Virus record (IMG/VR): IMGVR_UViG_3300009160_000029
Span: 1 to 64,000 of that record
Source: a virus
DNA length: 64,000 nucleotides
Direction: 5' to 3' (one strand)
Both the position numbers and the translations under genes were made by a program. Shown in pieces: positions 40,774 through 48,098 of the stretch; within the stretch, counting starts at the first letter, position 1; each line of letters opens with the position of its first letter. The notes under the pieces are model-generated. The model was not told the DNA's origin. It did not search any database and saw only the letters and a list, made by a program, of their open reading frames with translations.

Positions 40774-40941
40774 ATGAAAACCTTAAAAGAATTAAAAATA
40801 GAATTAAAAGAACTTCAAAACGAACACGAGTTTGAATCAACTAACTATCTAAAAAACAATTATAATCTCAAAAAAATAGAAGAAGATATTGTTGAATTAC
40901 AAGATACAATCAATAAAAGGGAGAAATATACAAATGCCTGA
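40774..40941 (+). CDS. Small coiled-coil protein, 55 aa
   Basis: Start ATG 40774 is chosen because an upstream TTG lies within the promoter. A single Lys/Glu/Leu-rich coiled coil ([18 protein letters not shown], then [14 protein letters not shown]). It overlaps uvsX by 8 nt. Unknown. Confidence 0.5.
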
Positions 40942-42031
40942 TTTTTTAAAAGACGCAATAAAAGATATTAATAACGAATATGCTGGTACAGCTGATGGTG
41001 ATTTAGTCGGAGATTCTACATCATTTGTAGATACTGGATCTTATATATTCAATGCTTTATTATCTGGTAATATCTATGATGGCTTACCAGCAAACAAAAT
41101 TACTGCATTAGCAGGAGAACCATCAAGTGGAAAAACATTTTTCACATTAGGAATTTGTAAAACATTTCAAGAATTAGGGAAACAAGCAGGCATTATATAC
41201 TTTGAAACAGAGGGTGCTATCACTAAGGATATGTTAGCTGAAAGAGGAATAGATCCTAAAAGATTTGTATTAATACCTGTATCAACAGTACAAGAATTTA
41301 GAAATCAAGCTACAAAAATTTGTGATAATATTGATAGAGTTCCACTTGAAGCAAGACATCCTATTTTAATTGTATTAGATTCTCTTGGTAATCTTTCAAC
41401 TGAAAAAGAAGTAAAAGATATTATTGAAGGAAACGACACACGTGATATGACGAGAGCACAATTAATTCGTGGTGCTTTCAGAGTACTTGCTTTAAGATTA
41501 TCTAAAATACAAGTTCCTATGATTGTCACAAACCACACATATGATGTAATTGGGGCTTATGTACCAACAAAAGAAATGGGTGGTGGTTCTGGATTAAAAT
41601 ATGCTGCATCAACAATCGTGTATCTATCTAAAACAAAAGACAGAGACAGTGAAAAAAATGTAGTTGGTAATATTGTAAAAGCCACTTTACAAAAATCTAG
41701 ATTTACAAGAGAGTTTTTGAAAGCTGAAATAAAACTTTCGTATGAAAAAGGTCTTGACAGATACTATGGATTAATTGACGTTGCAGTTGATGCTGGTATA
41801 TGGAAAGATGAGGGTGGAAGAATTGATGTTGGTGGAACCAAAGTTTTTGGTAAAGCTATTAAAGAAAACCCTGAGAAATATTTTACAAAAGAAGTATTAG
41901 ATAAAATAAATGAATATACTCAAAAAGCATTCAGATATGGATCTACTATTGAACTATCAGATAAAGTGAGTGAAATACAACCAGAAGAGAAAAAAGATGG
42001 TGGACGAAAAACAAAATCAAAATCCGAATAA
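40934..42031 (+). CDS. uvsX: Recombinase UvsX
   Basis: 365-residue RecA-family strand-exchange protein (T4 391 aa). ATG 40934 has a gggaga site and gives the typical [17 protein letters not shown] start. Walker [10 protein letters not shown] near 67; Walker [10 protein letters not shown] near 150; the L2-like region with [14 protein letters not shown] follows. The acidic C-terminal tail is typical. It overlaps the next gene. Confidence 0.95.
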
Positions 42032-42512
42032 ATCGGAAATTCCAGCTACAAGGGAAAATTTATTTCCTTTCATTAATCCTGACTCATATCAGTCTAAAGA
42101 AGCATATGAAGCAGCAAGGGATGAGTATCTTAAATCACAACCAGTAATTGTACCACCATATGAAACTTTAGAAACTAAAGGTAAATATGGAGCAAATGAA
42201 CTTAGATTTAAAAATGGAATACTTGAAAATGTAGTTGTATCCTTTGGTAAAGTATCATTTGAAAATCAAACAGATGGTAATATTAAATTATTCTACGAGT
42301 ATGATGCTGATGTAGAAAAATCATTACATCCATTTAATGTAGAGATACCAGAAAGTAAGCAATTACTTGAAAGACATTTAGGAGACTTTCTTATGGCTTG
42401 TATAGAAGAACAAGTTAGAAATAAAACTATTTTGTTTAGAGGTGGCAGCGAAGAAATGGAAGCATATACAAAAAAAACTAAAACTGATGAGAATAGAAAC
42501 AACAATACTTAA
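41997..42512 (+). CDS. Hypothetical protein between uvsX and gp41
   Basis: 171 residues from ATG 41997, overlapping uvsX by 35 nt and gp41 by 26 nt. Acidic N-terminus, then beta-rich segments ([22 protein letters not shown]) and a helical end ([18 protein letters not shown]). Not recognised; position suggests a replication or recombination accessory. Confidence 0.55.
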
Positions 42513-43890
42513 AAATTTACTTCATGATGAGGATTATGCTCGTAAAGTTGTACCACATTTACGTGAAGAATATTTCCAAGATAAAATTGAAAGAGCAATT
42601 GCTAGTCAAATACTAAAGTTTTTTATTAAATTTAATAAACCAGCTACAGTTGAAGTTATTGATATTGAACTTGGTAATGATAAAGCTTTATTTGAAACTG
42701 ATTATCAACAAGCACAAGCTTATACGAAAGACTTAAAGAATAAAGAAGATATAAATTCTAAGTGGTTAGTTGACGCAACTGAAAAATTTTGTAAAGATAA
42801 AGCTGTCTATAATTCTATTATGGATAGTATTAAAATTATAGATGGTCGTGATAAAGTAAGAAAACAAGACAGTATTCCTTCTTTACTATCTGATGCACTT
42901 TCAGTTTCTTTTGATAAATCAGTTGGTCATGATTATCTTGAAAATGCGGACGATCGTTTTGATTTCTATAAACGTACAGAAGAAAAAATACCATTTGATA
43001 TAGATTTGTTTAATACTATTACACGTGGTGGTGTAAGTAATAAAACTTTGAATGTTGCCTTAGCAGGAACAGGAGTTGGTAAATCTTTATTCTTATGTCA
43101 TTTTGCATCAGCAAATTTAATGAATAATCTTAATGTACTCTATATAACTTTAGAGATGTCTGAAGAAAAGATTGCTGAACGTATTGATGCGAATTTATTA
43201 AATGTCACTATGGATGAGTTAAAAATCCTAGAGAAAATAGATTTTACTTTACGTGTTGATAGAGTGAAAGAAAAAACTAAAGGAAAACTTGTTATAAAAG
43301 AGTTTCCTACAGCAACAGCACATGTTGGTCATTTTAGATCATTACTTGATGAACTAAAAATGAAAAAAGATTTTAAACCAGATGTTATTTACGTGGATTA
43401 TTTAAATCTATGTGTTTCTGCTAGATTAAAATATGGTGGAAATAATAATTCTTACACTGTTATTAAGAGCATAGCAGAGGAATTAAGAGGACTAGCAGTA
43501 CAATATGATTTACCTATAATGACTGCTACTCAAACAACAAGACAAGGATTTACTTCTTCTGATTTAGGATTAGAAGATACTTCTGAATCATTCGGTCTTC
43601 CAGCAACAGCTGACTTTATGTTTGCGATTATTGCTACTGAAGATATGATTAAAGAAGGAATAGCAAGTGTAAAACAATTAAAGAATCGTTATAACGATCC
43701 TAATTATTATAAAAGATTTGTCGTTGGTGTTGAAAGAAACAAGATGAAAGTCTATAATCTTGAAACAGAACATATGAAAAGACATATGGCACTAGCCGAC
43801 GCAGGAGATTCTACACCTGTATTTGATAAAGGAAATATAGGTGAAAGAATAAAGGCAGAAACAACATCATCGTTTAAATTCGATGAATAA
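42487..43890 (+). CDS. gp41: Replicative DNA helicase gp41
   Basis: 467-residue DnaB-type hexameric helicase (T4 475). The start ATG 42487 gives [21 protein letters not shown], equal to T4 gp41. Walker A AGTGVGKSL near 198; Walker B DVIYVDYLNL near 303; ATQTTRQGF near 350. It overlaps the previous gene. The primase gp61 is not in the window. Confidence 0.95.
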   Translation: MRIETTILKNLLHDEDYARKVVPHLREEYFQDKIERAIASQILKFFIKFNKPATVEVIDIELGNDKALFETDYQQAQAYTKDLKNKEDINSKWLVDATEKFCKDKAVYNSIMDSIKIIDGRDKVRKQDSIPSLLSDALSVSFDKSVGHDYLENADDRFDFYKRTEEKIPFDIDLFNTITRGGVSNKTLNVALAGTGVGKSLFLCHFASANLMNNLNVLYITLEMSEEKIAERIDANLLNVTMDELKILEKIDFTLRVDRVKEKTKGKLVIKEFPTATAHVGHFRSLLDELKMKKDFKPDVIYVDYLNLCVSARLKYGGNNNSYTVIKSIAEELRGLAVQYDLPIMTATQTTRQGFTSSDLGLEDTSESFGLPATADFMFAIIATEDMIKEGIASVKQLKNRYNDPNYYKRFVVGVERNKMKVYNLETEHMKRHMALADAGDSTPVFDKGNIGERIKAETTSSFKFDE

Positions 43891-43905: not shown

Positions 43906-45204
43906 ATGACAACAAAAGTGATAACCGCAGCAACTAAAGTTGATTGTGAGCATTTGCTTGCGACTTTTGTAGATCATTCACACTATGACACTTTGGTGGA
44001 ATATGATTGTGATTTCTATGCTCCATCTGTAGATGGGATAAACAGCGAGAAAAACATTCTGTTTAAGTTTAGAAAAAATTGGTTTACGAAAGAGCAACAA
44101 GACTTAGCATATAAAGGTCTTCGAGAAGCAGCAGTCGAAACACAAAATCGTGGCATAGCAGCAGGACCAAAAGGTTCAAAACTTGGTGGTCGTGACTGGG
44201 TGACGGAATATCAAGAAGAAATGCTTGAAGCATTATCTAAGTATGAAACTACACTTGATGGTTCTAATCCTATAACAACAATCACAGAAAAATATAAAAA
44301 CAAAGATAAAACAGCAGCAGGAAACAGAGGATCTGTTTGGCTTAAGAATAAAGTCACTGATGAAGGATTTATCTTTGAAGAGTGGTTAAATGAAATAAAA
44401 TCATTATCTCGTGATGAAATAGTGAAAGAAGCAATACGAGTAAAGTCTAAATTGACTTCAACAACTTCATATGCGCAAGCAGTGTGGTCTGGTATTGCTG
44501 GATATTTTGATAGATATCCTCGTATTCCTTATGGAAGAGCAACATCATTTACTGAAAAGAATCCTGAGAAATTTGCTATGGGGTTCCCATTCTTACAAAA
44601 ACTTTCAGATGGTTTTAAACAATTACTGCCTGAACGTTTTGCGAAACAAAAAGAAGCATGTGACAAAATGGATCCAAAGTTTATTATTCCAGGAACTGTA
44701 TTTACTACAGCGACTGTAAATAAAACTTTTAGAACAGCAGCACATAGAGATGCTGGTGATTTAAATGAAGGATTTAGTAATCTTACAGTAGTATCAAACA
44801 ATGGTAAGTACAAAGGAGGTTATCTAGTACTACCAGAATACAAAGTTGCTGTAAATATACGTCCAGGAGATTTATTATTAATTAACAATCACGAGGGTAT
44901 TCATGGAAATACTGAAATGACTGTTGAAGATCCTGAAGCAGAACGTATTTCTTTCGTTTGTTATTTCAGAGAAAAGATGCTAGAACTTGGCTCTTGGAAT
45001 TATGAATTAACAAGAAAAAATTACGTTGAAGATAGACGTAGAAATAAAGACCATCCATTACAAAGAGAACTTTGGAATGGAGTTTCAGAAAATATGTGGA
45101 AAGATCAAGAATGGTATGATTATCTAACATCTAAATTAGGTAAAGAATCATTATACAAATACCATCCTGAAGCAAATAAATCTTCACTTGAAGCATTTTT
45201 TTAA
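43906..45204 (+). CDS. TET/JBP-like 2OG-Fe(II) dioxygenase, putative DNA base oxidase
   Basis: 432 residues. The catalytic double-stranded beta-helix is in the C-terminal half: iron site H280-R-D282 (AAHRDAGD), the strand GGYLVLPEY, the RPGDLLLINNHEGIHGN block with the distal His (H333, or H329) and Arg347 (ERISFVCYF) for 2-oxoglutarate. The order HxD, GG-L-LPE, GDLL, H, R is that of the TET/JBP family, which oxidises 5-methylcytosine or thymine in DNA. The N-terminal ~200 residues are charged and may bind DNA. It starts 15 bp after the gp41 helicase stop and precedes a glycosyltransferase by 2 bp. Expected product: a hydroxymethylated base. Substrate not determined. Confidence 0.8.
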   Translation: MTTKVITAATKVDCEHLLATFVDHSHYDTLVEYDCDFYAPSVDGINSEKNILFKFRKNWFTKEQQDLAYKGLREAAVETQNRGIAAGPKGSKLGGRDWVTEYQEEMLEALSKYETTLDGSNPITTITEKYKNKDKTAAGNRGSVWLKNKVTDEGFIFEEWLNEIKSLSRDEIVKEAIRVKSKLTSTTSYAQAVWSGIAGYFDRYPRIPYGRATSFTEKNPEKFAMGFPFLQKLSDGFKQLLPERFAKQKEACDKMDPKFIIPGTVFTTATVNKTFRTAAHRDAGDLNEGFSNLTVVSNNGKYKGGYLVLPEYKVAVNIRPGDLLLINNHEGIHGNTEMTVEDPEAERISFVCYFREKMLELGSWNYELTRKNYVEDRRRNKDHPLQRELWNGVSENMWKDQEWYDYLTSKLGKESLYKYHPEANKSSLEAFF

Positions 45205-45206
45205 AC

Positions 45207-46211
45207 ATGTCTCTCCATGAATTTTTAGGAGAGGAACGAGCACTAGATTGGTATTATACTGCTAATTCTTTAAACAAGGGATTAAAACTTGGTTATCGGA
45301 GAGTATCTGGTAAGATAGGATTAACAAATAAAGAATCTGGTGTTCGTGGCGCATGGGTAGAAAAAAGAATTGCACTCTTTAAGAACTTATTCGCATCTGG
45401 TTATTCAATAATTCCTTTTTCAACACCAACAGAAGCAACAGCAGCAGATGGATTTACATCTGTTGATACATACACAAATTGTGATATACTTATATTAGAA
45501 TTTGGTGGAACAAATTTACAATTCTATAAAAAAGATTGGGACAAAACAGTTGAACTGATTAAGTCACATTCTGGTAAAATAATATTCATTAACGACGATC
45601 CTGATCTACCATTTCTTTGGGAGTTATTACCAAATGAAAAATGGGATAGATGGGTAGTCGCAGCAAACGCAACCAACTCTGCAGAAGTTTCAACAATTCT
45701 TAAATGCCCAATAGGTGTAAGAGTTGTAGATTTACCAATGGCGAATGGAATGTCATTTGAATCTTTTTCAAATGGTGATATAGATAAAACTGTTTATATC
45801 GGAAGACCAAATGGAAGAACAAAATACTTCAAAGAATTTTTAAAGTCATCAAGTCTTGAAATATCAGGAAAACCAAAAGAGTGGACTGATTTTAATATAA
45901 ACGTTATTGAAAATCCACAACAAAAAGATCGAAGAAAATTTTATAGAAATTATAAAGGATGTTTAACTGTTTATGATAGTAAGCATAAAACATCTGGATG
46001 GAGAACTGGTCGTGCTTTTCATGCACTTTATGCTGGTATTCCAGTTTGTGCACCATCTGGAAATAATGGTTTAAATTGGACATATCCTGTAGAAACTGCA
46101 GAGGACTTAACTAAATTTACATCGTTATCAGATGAAAAACGTAAATTGATTTGGGAAAAACAAAAATCAATTATTCAAAATGAAACAAATATAGATTTAA
46201 TTTTATTATGA
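45207..46211 (+). CDS. Putative GT-B glycosyltransferase, likely DNA-base glycosylating
   Basis: 334 residues, 2 bp after the dioxygenase. The N-terminal half has Rossmann-like strands (CDILILEFGG, KIIFINDDP). The C-terminal half has TVYIGRPNGRTKYFKEFL and the block YDSKHKTSGWRTGRAFHALYAGIPVCAP, whose H...R..E/R-F-x-A-L-x-A-G pattern fits the sugar-nucleotide pocket of GT-B enzymes such as T4 alpha-glucosyltransferase. With its neighbour, it could add glucose to 5-hydroxymethyl-pyrimidine in DNA. Overall sequence identity to T4 AGT/BGT is not evident. Confidence 0.68.
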   Translation: MSLHEFLGEERALDWYYTANSLNKGLKLGYRRVSGKIGLTNKESGVRGAWVEKRIALFKNLFASGYSIIPFSTPTEATAADGFTSVDTYTNCDILILEFGGTNLQFYKKDWDKTVELIKSHSGKIIFINDDPDLPFLWELLPNEKWDRWVVAANATNSAEVSTILKCPIGVRVVDLPMANGMSFESFSNGDIDKTVYIGRPNGRTKYFKEFLKSSSLEISGKPKEWTDFNINVIENPQQKDRRKFYRNYKGCLTVYDSKHKTSGWRTGRAFHALYAGIPVCAPSGNNGLNWTYPVETAEDLTKFTSLSDEKRKLIWEKQKSIIQNETNIDLILL

Positions 46212-46657
46212 TAGTATCTTACGATATGGATGGTGTTCTTGCACTAAACCCACCACCAAATATAAAAAAATGGGGACATATGAATGGGGCTGAAAGAAGA
46301 GCAAGAAAAGAATTTCTATATGATTGGTATAGTTCTGCTGAACTATTATATAAACCAACTGAAGATAAATTTCATGTAATTTCAGCAAGAAAGAAAGACC
46401 AACGCACATGGGAAATAACGATGAATTGGTTAAATAAATATTTTCCTGGAAGAGTAATTTCATTATCTTTATTAAATGTACCAAGAACTGTGAACAATGT
46501 AGTAAAGTTTAAGAATGATGCGATTAACTCAATTGGTGCAATCGAGCATACTGAAGATAATAAAAAAGTATTAAGAGGTATTTCAAAAATTAATAAGACT
46601 ATTAAATTATACTTTTGGGAAAAGGATATGACAAACAAGGAAATATTCAATGGCTAA
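46208..46657 (+). CDS. HAD-like phosphatase
   Basis: 149 residues, overlapping the glycosyltransferase stop by 4 nt. The YDMDGVL motif (Asp6 nucleophile, Asp8 acid/base) is the HAD signature. A later FHVISARKKDQRTWE block gives the Ser and Lys/Arg, and the KNDAINSIGAIEHTEDNKKV block supplies the acidic motif. Perhaps a nucleotide or sugar-phosphate phosphatase assisting modification or salvage. It is shorter than T4 PseT and lacks a kinase domain. Confidence 0.7.
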   Translation: MIVSYDMDGVLALNPPPNIKKWGHMNGAERRARKEFLYDWYSSAELLYKPTEDKFHVISARKKDQRTWEITMNWLNKYFPGRVISLSLLNVPRTVNNVVKFKNDAINSIGAIEHTEDNKKVLRGISKINKTIKLYFWEKDMTNKEIFNG

Positions 46658-47240
46658 AAACTATTTTCATTTAAAACTTCCTTTTAAAGACCCTTTAAGT
46701 GAAAAAGGTATGACGTGGTTTCACAATCTACCACCTTGTTTTATACAAGTACCAAATCAATATTTTAATCCAGAAGCTGTTGAGTTTTTTAAAAAACATA
46801 AATTACTCTATTGGGATGCTGAGGTTTTTTCATTTCCTGCAAATTACAAAATGGAAATACATGTTGATGCTGTTGAGTTTTCAGAAAAATGTAAATTAAA
46901 TTGGGCTTATAGTAAAGGAGACCATCATAATCTTTGGTTTAAACCAAAACCATCTTGGATACCAAGAGCAACTGACGGAGAACAAAACGATGGACGTTAT
47001 GATGACTACAGCTACACTTTTGAAGAAAATGAAGTTGAAGAAGTTGAAAGAACTACTGTAAGAACACCAACTTGTATAGTAAGTGGTCAGCCACATAGTG
47101 TGCGAACATATAGTGAGCCAAGAAAAGCAATTTCTGTCACTCTATATCCATATGGAACTAATCCACCAGCTTTACCAAAAGACTGGGGAATGCCAATATC
47201 AAACATGAAAGAGGTTTTAAATGATTACATCGTTGATTAG
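46650..47240 (+). CDS. HxD...H beta-helix protein, putative 2OG-Fe(II) oxygenase (copy 1)
   Basis: 196 residues, overlapping the phosphatase gene by 8 nt. His71-x-Asp73 (MEIHVDA) and a distal His149 (SGQPHSV) with nearby Arg152/Arg158 and AISVTL strand fit a double-stranded beta-helix oxygenase. The segment KLNWAYSKGDHHNLWFKPK (82-100) aligns with KMNFSYGDSNAYMEWFKFK of the 47502 protein at the same offset from HxD. Residues 110-138 are an acidic loop. Function unknown; operon context suggests base or nucleotide modification. Confidence 0.6.
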   Translation: MAKNYFHLKLPFKDPLSEKGMTWFHNLPPCFIQVPNQYFNPEAVEFFKKHKLLYWDAEVFSFPANYKMEIHVDAVEFSEKCKLNWAYSKGDHHNLWFKPKPSWIPRATDGEQNDGRYDDYSYTFEENEVEEVERTTVRTPTCIVSGQPHSVRTYSEPRKAISVTLYPYGTNPPALPKDWGMPISNMKEVLNDYIVD

Positions 47241-47397: not shown

Positions 47398-47509
47398 ATC
47401 TTTAAGAACACCCAAATTTAAACAAAAGATTGTAAAGAATAAAAAACAGTATAGCAGAAAAAATAAAACAATAGAAGAAATTAATCATCACTTTGAAATA
47501 TATGAATAA
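47375..47509 (+). CDS. Small very basic protein, 44 aa
   Basis: ATG 47375 overlaps the previous gene by 23 nt and its stop overlaps the next ATG. The N-terminal RNPVAKSLRTPKFKQKIVKN, with 11 Lys/Arg up to residue 32, suits RNA or DNA binding. Similar short basic proteins are, as far as I recall, common in T4-like phages; unverified. Confidence 0.5.
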   Translation: MKRNPVAKSLRTPKFKQKIVKNKKQYSRKNKTIEEINHHFEIYE

Positions 47510-48098
47510 ACAATACGATTCTAATTTTTTTTTTCATTTAAAAGAACAATTTGATCCACTACAAAATATGGAAATAATTAAAAAATTTCCTACAGGAAAA
47601 CATATTTTAGATAAAAATTATGCATCACCTAATCTTAAATCTTTTGAAACTGATATATTCGAAATAGCTCAAATAGAGTTATTCGTCACTCCAGCTGGAG
47701 GAAAACTAGGTACTCATATTGATTCAGGATCACCAAGTGGTTCAGTTAAAATGAATTTTAGTTATGGTGATTCTAATGCTTATATGGAATGGTTTAAATT
47801 TAAAAACGGAATGGCTATACCTGTAAATGAATGGATTGATGCTAGAGATTCTGAGATGGATCAAGAGACAGATCAAGATAAAATCACATTAAGATATCGC
47901 GATAATGATTGTGAACTTATTTGTTCAGAACTTATAAGAAGACCATCAATTGTAAATGTTTCAATTCCCCATGGATTAAATTGTGAAAACAGTGATATAA
48001 AATGTATGACTGTTGCTGTTCTATTTGAACAATATTTAAATAATGAATGGAATAAAATTACAATGCCAAAGGCATTAGAATTATGGGGTGATAGATGA
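47502..48098 (+). CDS. HxD...H beta-helix protein, putative 2OG-Fe(II) oxygenase (copy 2)
   Basis: 198 residues from ATG 47502 (a TTG 9 nt upstream is rejected). His72-x-Asp74 (GTHIDSG), distal His157 (VSIPHGLN) and strand CMTVAVLF. It is a paralogue of the 46650 protein, with the block 83-101 aligned. GGKLGTHIDSGSPS resembles cupin/aspartyl-hydroxylase-like iron sites. No Arg in the usual 2OG place is obvious, so co-substrate is uncertain. Confidence 0.58.
   Translation: MNKQYDSNFFFHLKEQFDPLQNMEIIKKFPTGKHILDKNYASPNLKSFETDIFEIAQIELFVTPAGGKLGTHIDSGSPSGSVKMNFSYGDSNAYMEWFKFKNGMAIPVNEWIDARDSEMDQETDQDKITLRYRDNDCELICSELIRRPSIVNVSIPHGLNCENSDIKCMTVAVLFEQYLNNEWNKITMPKALELWGDR

Follow-up and report, generated by a model that had tools for sequence, protein, structure and literature searches.

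A likely thymine-oxidizing, base-J-like hypermodification cassette with a T4 β-glucosyltransferase-fold partner and apparently swappable second-step modules beside a phage replicative helicase

The DNA analyzed here (the window) corresponds to bases 1 to 64,000 of a record from an uncultivated virus; the record is 99,969 bases long and is itself a fragment of a genome. Head, tail, and replication genes of the T4 type are present in the window, and the source is a T4-like virus of bacteria. Within the replication operon, genes for a uvsX-type recombinase and a DnaB/gp41-type replicative helicase are followed by genes for a TET/JBP-family dioxygenase (TET, or the oxygenase), a glycosyltransferase (GT), and a HAD-phosphatase-like protein (Table 1). 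The packing is tight: 15 bp separate the helicase reading frame from TET, 2 bp separate TET from the GT, and the HAD and GT genes overlap by 4 nt. Re-examination of the open reading frames gave the same gene coordinates, the same 2-bp gap, and the same uvsX/gp41 operon setting as an earlier sequence-only reading of this DNA, which made no mention of the HAD-like gene, the third member of the unit. The uvsX-type frame, as called, begins at TTG and may have an internal true start. Most loci of the T4-like lineage that contain a TET keep the order uvsX, helicase, TET, and helicase genes of a single cluster (c1) precede TET in most of these T4-like loci.

Table 1. Genes of the replication-operon segment and residues of interest in the oxygenase and the GT (positions in the window)
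Feature	Position	Strand	Basis
uvsX-type recombinase, upstream operon gene	40889..42031	+	PHROG UvsX-like recombinase match; TTG-start ORF
DnaB/gp41-type replicative helicase, directly before the oxygenase gene	42442..43890	+	PHROG DnaB-like replicative helicase
TET/JBP-family Fe(II)/2-oxoglutarate dioxygenase, 432 aa	43906..45204	+	PF12851, phrog_24024, TET2 profile match, AF2/Foldseek
H280-R281-D282 codons, predicted Fe(II)-binding HxD	44743..44751	+	Aligned to TET2 HRD
H333 codon, predicted distal Fe(II) ligand	44902..44904	+	Conservation in phage TETs
R347 codon, predicted 2-oxoglutarate-binding Arg	44944..44946	+	Aligned to Arg of TET2 RISLVFYQH
R355 codon, TET2 His (H1904) position, candidate base-reading residue	44968..44970	+	Arg throughout clade
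GT-B glycosyltransferase, predicted T4 β-glucosyltransferase fold, 334 aa	45207..46211	+	AF2 model, Foldseek, TET linkage
D131 codon, aligned with Asp100 of T4 BGT	45597..45599	+	Weak local profile alignment
HAD-phosphatase-like protein, 149 aa, cassette gene 3	46208..46657	+	DMDGVL motif; position after GT

Judged by its sequence and its predicted structure, the oxygenase is a true TET/JBP dioxygenase in which the Fe/2OG site appears intact. It matches PF12851 (Tet_JBP) at E=2.4e-23 (82.6 bits, with a curated cut-off of 34.9) and, over its full length, phrog_24024, a family of no known function (E=7e-173). A profile built from 28 relatives reaches human TET2 in the PDB (E=3.6e-6), with the HRD and RISLVFY motifs in register. 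The AlphaFold2 (AF2) model (pLDDT 85.7) was compared with the PDB using Foldseek, and the best 26 matches all belong to the TET family (CcTet, NgTET1, TET2, CMD1), with FTO/AlkB-type nucleic-acid dioxygenases beyond them. Global TM scores against TET structures are modest (0.3–0.46 by query length), as is expected where the part in common is the catalytic part only. The motifs singled out in the sequence-only reading (HRD at 280–282, GGYLVLPEY, RPGDLLL, H333, and R347) are all found in the protein, and its proposal of a TET/JBP-like dioxygenase is well supported by the Pfam match, the conserved Fe/2OG residues, and the fold. Structure prediction, which it had suggested as a check, places the protein among TET/JBP DNA dioxygenases and not in a protein- or lipid-acting family. 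D282 is present in all 107 distinct phage TETs compared and H280 in 106 of them; H333 and R347 are each conserved in 106/107, with one gap. No J-DNA-binding domain was found by Pfam, which at E<=1 returns only Tet_JBP and a weak, overlapping TauD match.

We considered whether R355 could serve as a marker of thymine as substrate. The residue is Arg in 106/107 of the clade (one gap), and divergent actinophage and cyanophage TETs have Leu or Ile at this position. The idea was dropped, given that Arg is fixed in the clade yet replaced in those actinophage and cyanophage proteins, and that the TET of locus L165, with a C5-methyltransferase gene nearby, likewise has Arg. The candidate base-reading residues D285 and R355 fail to separate T from 5mC, as kinase-adjacent divergent TETs carry other residues there. 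It should also be noted that some TET relatives are labeled “SNF2 DNA repair protein” in GenBank, and that others carry the label “queuine tRNA-ribosyltransferase” in PHROG and GenBank (L002:14998-16344, L003:14998-16326, and L005:3729-5165; PHROG 6059). We rejected both labels in favor of Tet_JBP, and they are apparently misannotations.

The GT was identified by fold search only. Its sequence finds nothing significant in Pfam (best E=0.12), in PHROGs, or in the PDB by sequence or profile, and the interleukin-2 matches that sequence searches returned are due to chance. The AF2 model is confident (pLDDT 90.3, pTM 0.87). When it was compared with 350,542 PDB chains, T4 β-glucosyltransferase (BGT) took ranks 1–3 (E 4e-9 to 7e-9, TM 0.66–0.70), followed by Gtf3-type protein glycosyltransferases and, lower down, by T4 alpha-glucosyltransferase and the phage HY126 glycosyltransferase. 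Named remote matches in the viral library include a DNA beta-glucosyltransferase and a phage SP-15 glycosyltransferase. The description of this neighbor as GT-B-like in the earlier reading therefore stands, on the strength of a confident model with T4 BGT as its nearest PDB fold. The profile searches against TET/JBP and GT families that the reading had also suggested had a divided outcome, positive for the oxygenase (Tet_JBP) and negative for the GT (no Pfam or PHROG match).

There was no match at E<=1 between the GT and PF09198, the sequence family of T4 BGT, and no match to PF20691, the family of TET-associated glycosyltransferases (TAGT). Profile–profile comparison with BGT gave a weak alignment (E 0.13, probability below 1%), with a local pairing of KIIFINDD and KIYYLFTD in which D131 of the GT aligns with Asp100 of T4 BGT, which we take to be the catalytic base. 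D131 is invariant in 25 relatives, and the YIGRPNGR segment of the GT is similar by eye to YGGSFRSGQR of BGT. At most, the aligned aspartates and the likeness of these segments suggest kinship with BGT. Overall, the GT appears to represent an undescribed sequence family with a predicted GT-B fold of the T4 BGT type.

A search of 2.9 million viral contigs for the GT family recovered 67 loci in which the GT frame was usable. TET lies within the fetched flank of the GT in 62 of the 67, a count in which near relatives are over-represented because the members used to build the profile were themselves linked to a TET. In most linked loci the TET gene ends 2–9 bases 5′ of the GT start, and in most loci the HAD gene comes after the GT. 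Four loci (L214, L215, L218, and L220), all with short TETs, show the reversed order GT-HAD-TET. The presence of this order in a second lineage indicates that the association of the three genes is not tied to a single arrangement.

Within the T4-like lineage, the genes found 3′ of TET vary behind the run of uvsX, helicase, and TET. Instead of GT and HAD, this slot may hold GATase, Amidoligase_2, ADDT, and a P-loop kinase; an FkbM methyltransferase, ADDT, an inositol-phosphate-synthase-like gene, and a kinase; or a TAGT (the kinase and ADDT calls are HMM family names, with predicted functions). For example, in loci L026 and L027 a TET 89% identical to the one described here is followed by GATase, amidoligase, ADDT, and Ploopntkinase3, and loci L162 and L163 have near-identical neighborhoods that contain ADDT plus kinase in one case and a TAGT in the other. 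Much the same alternatives accompany the shorter TETs of HTVC112P-like and P12024L-like phages. Among 76 unique loci, the GT occurs with ADDT/kinase only once (1/24 vs 32/52; Fisher p 1e-6, shared ancestry ignored), and ADDT is associated with the kinase (Fisher p 1e-10, again ignoring shared ancestry). Mapping the four slot states onto the TET tree requires nine changes or more, and the GT appears in separate places amid ADDT/kinase neighbors. In tests with PF18751 and PF18724, the kinase and ADDT were found in sister genomes G002, G003, G004, and G009 (and in Cr30, weakly for the kinase); neither was detected in the 99,969-base record (G000) or in G001. From its gene content, the slot looks like a swappable DNA-modification cassette.

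Which base is oxidized bears directly on what the cassette makes, and we consider that it is very probably thymine. Searches with PF00145 (C5-methyltransferase) and PF00303 (thymidylate synthase [TS] family) found neither in the 99,969-base fragment, in a 144,834-base contig whose TET and GT are identical to those described here, or in relatives of 131,091, 126,843, and 159,683 bases (the completeness of the contig and of these relatives is unproven). G001 and G011 are among the genomes in which PF00145 was not found. In the complete isolates DLP6, C48C1, and S-CBWM1 these searches detected no C5-methyltransferase and no TS-type gene, and isolate Cr30 has one TS gene and no C5-methyltransferase. 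The sequence-only reading had found no cytosine methyltransferase or hydroxymethylase in the window and had advised looking in the remainder of the genome; by the PF00145 and PF00303 searches, its statement is true of the whole record.

A second line of evidence comes from contig G016, which encodes relatives of both the GT (33%) and the HAD protein (36%) and shows no TET within the flank that was fetched. The genes that come next specify a protein with a 5-hmdU DNA kinase helical domain (PF18723, 9e-26), a member of the TS family, and a YfbR-like 5′-deoxynucleotidase. The TS-family protein has Asn aligned to the Asn of TS, where CMP hydroxymethylase has Asp, and this position decides between dUMP and dCMP (PMC8670742). 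Given this Asn and the lack of a TET in the flank, a uracil-type TS-family enzyme seems to stand in for TET. In phages M6, ViI, and phi W-14, 5hmdU is an intermediate that is phosphorylated by 5hmdU DNA kinase (PMC6449724). Together, the missing C5-methyltransferase and TS-type genes, the 5hmU-pathway genes that occupy the slot in relatives, and the G016 arrangement favor thymine. They lend support to the direct thymine oxidation that the earlier reading had put forward as its leading idea, the base being one that we infer. Counter to this, the kinase and ADDT genes sit in relatives and not in the 99,969-base record.

The most serious alternative is a cytosine route, in which a C5-methyltransferase, either the host's or an unseen one of the phage, would supply 5mC that TET oxidizes to 5hmC and the GT then glycosylates; we consider it unlikely. 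T4 BGT, the nearest fold to the GT, acts on hydroxymethylcytosine, the phage TETs tested so far are reported to use C5-methylcytosine, and a PF00145 gene lies near the TET of the distant locus L165. As far as the citing literature describes them, phage systems that combine a TET/JBP enzyme and a glycosyltransferase, as here, with a C5-methyltransferase to produce glycosylated cytosine are on record (Burke et al. 2021, via PMC12730594). They are set apart by that methyltransferase, which was found neither in the 99,969-base record nor in the 144,834-base record, the longer relatives, or the isolates searched. The host could supply 5mC, but host methylation would mark only a fraction of cytosines. 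The cytosine route also sits poorly with the 5hmU-pathway genes found in the slot and next to the GT relative that has no TET.

The gene families, the folds, the oxygenase active site, the operon, and the linkage are computational observations, and the cassette that they compose likely performs two-step, post-replicative thymine hypermodification to give base-J-like glycosyl-5hmU in phage DNA. In the first step, the TET/JBP enzyme would oxidize the 5-methyl group of thymine in phage DNA, yielding 5-hydroxymethyluracil. In the second, the T4-BGT-fold GT would attach a sugar to the hydroxymethyl group, with a nucleotide sugar as donor, forming glycosyl-5hmU; that the oxidized base is glycosylated we regard as highly likely. 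The HAD protein probably removes a phosphate somewhere in the pathway (from the sugar, a nucleotide, or the modified base). Glycosyl-5hmU would shield the phage genome from host nucleases, a protective role that, like the identity of the sugar, we infer.

Alternatively, TET and GT might serve two separate pathways, with TET acting on DNA or RNA and the GT on a virion protein, the cell surface, or a host factor. GT-B folds serve a wide range of acceptors, the fold matches that rank next after BGT are Gtf3-type protein glycosyltransferases, and no sequence similarity to PF09198 could be detected in the GT. However, the near-obligate linkage in two gene orders, the exchange of the GT for other DNA-modification genes at this slot, and the position of the cassette in the replication operon all argue against independent roles, and we judge this reading to be quite improbable. 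That TET, GT, and HAD mainly modify tRNA or other RNA, as the queuine tRNA-ribosyltransferase labels on some TET relatives might suggest, is extremely improbable, because that label is unsupported in a protein that matches Tet_JBP and the linked families (ADDT, 5hmdU-DNA kinase) are named for DNA.

The proposed thymine pathway can be compared with several known systems. In trypanosome base J (JBP1/2 plus the J glucosyltransferase), as proposed here, a TET/JBP-type dioxygenase acts before a sugar is placed on the hydroxymethyl base, and thymine is proposed as the starting base in the phage too; the phage protein is without a J-binding domain in Pfam, and the genomic setting differs. The T4 system (gp42 plus BGT) has the same GT fold, and T4 b-gt and gene 42 also adjoin uvsX-40-41; TET here would take the place of the hydroxymethylase function. 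In T4, however, the hydroxymethyl group is made on dCMP by a TS-family enzyme (gene 42), whereas in this phage it would be made in DNA by the dioxygenase, and T4 BGT belongs by sequence to PF09198, outside which the GT described here falls. Thymidine hypermodification systems (5hmdU kinase, ADDT, aGPT-PPlase) are linked to this locus by sister phages in which a closely related TET is followed by a kinase/ADDT slot; the phage studied here has GT and HAD in place of these genes. Finally, TAGT genes (PF20691; P12024L, S-CBWM1, Altadena) also lie directly 3′ of a phage TET, but the GT here has no PF20691 match and a predicted GT-B fold of the T4 BGT type.

In 2013, Iyer and colleagues reportedly predicted that hydroxymethyl pyrimidines made by TET/JBP enzymes are the start of hypermodification pathways. 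The gene set of actinophage Tonitrus, which includes a “Tet-like J-binding protein,” is described as one for thymine hypermodification (PMC11955845), and phage Prince carries a “thymidine hydroxylase” annotation. The pairing of a phage TET with a transferase is already predicted, and for actinophages a TET-linked route to thymine hypermodification has been put forward. What appear to be new are the GT family, the HAD partner, and the repeated exchange of modules at one slot of a replication operon. Taken as a whole, a phage base J that combines TET/JBP thymine oxidation, a T4-BGT-fold GT, and swappable second-step modules beside the replication helicase is a fairly probable description of this locus. 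The GT family is one that sequence libraries miss, and the allele-swap design, in which a single oxygenase feeds several chemistries, would explain quick change of phage DNA armor. Cultivated phages (DLP6, Cr30, HTVC112P, and P12024L) carry TET relatives, so the question of thymine is testable. If the proposal is true, a TET that converts T to 5hmU and a GT active on 5hmU could both serve as useful reagents.

Several further observations concern the surroundings of these genes. Two tandem, distantly related paralogs (46650-47240 and 47493-48098; cluster c4) with HxD-type motifs lie 3′ of the cassette in many relatives and are possibly small 2OG-type oxygenases. The part of the record beyond the window (64001-99969; L008, L009) contains two class-III aminotransferase matches, an FkbM methyltransferase, and a ketoacyl synthase, along with SAM decarboxylase, aspartyl-hydroxylase-like, and pyrimidine-dimer-glycosylase matches; the aminotransferase and FkbM genes might be involved in sugar synthesis or modification. 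The sole PF00145-type C5-methyltransferase observed near a TET in the clade is a fragment (L165:1883-2536) that adjoins ADDT and kinase genes. ParB_N-domain proteins recur just 5′ of short and actinophage TETs (L126:5369-6004, L233:1171-4683, L236:2209-2850). The laboratory Caulobacter phage Cr30 (L003:18024-20161, W02:51872-52327) has a TET, a strong ADDT match (2.4e-54), and a TAGT-cluster gene, as well as the TS gene, an inositol-phosphate synthase, and a P-loop kinase match that is weak. In Arthrobacter phage Altadena (L237:3908-6194), the TET is followed by a TAGT and a PIG-L GlcNAc deacetylase, which suggests that the base carries a sugar of the glucosamine type.
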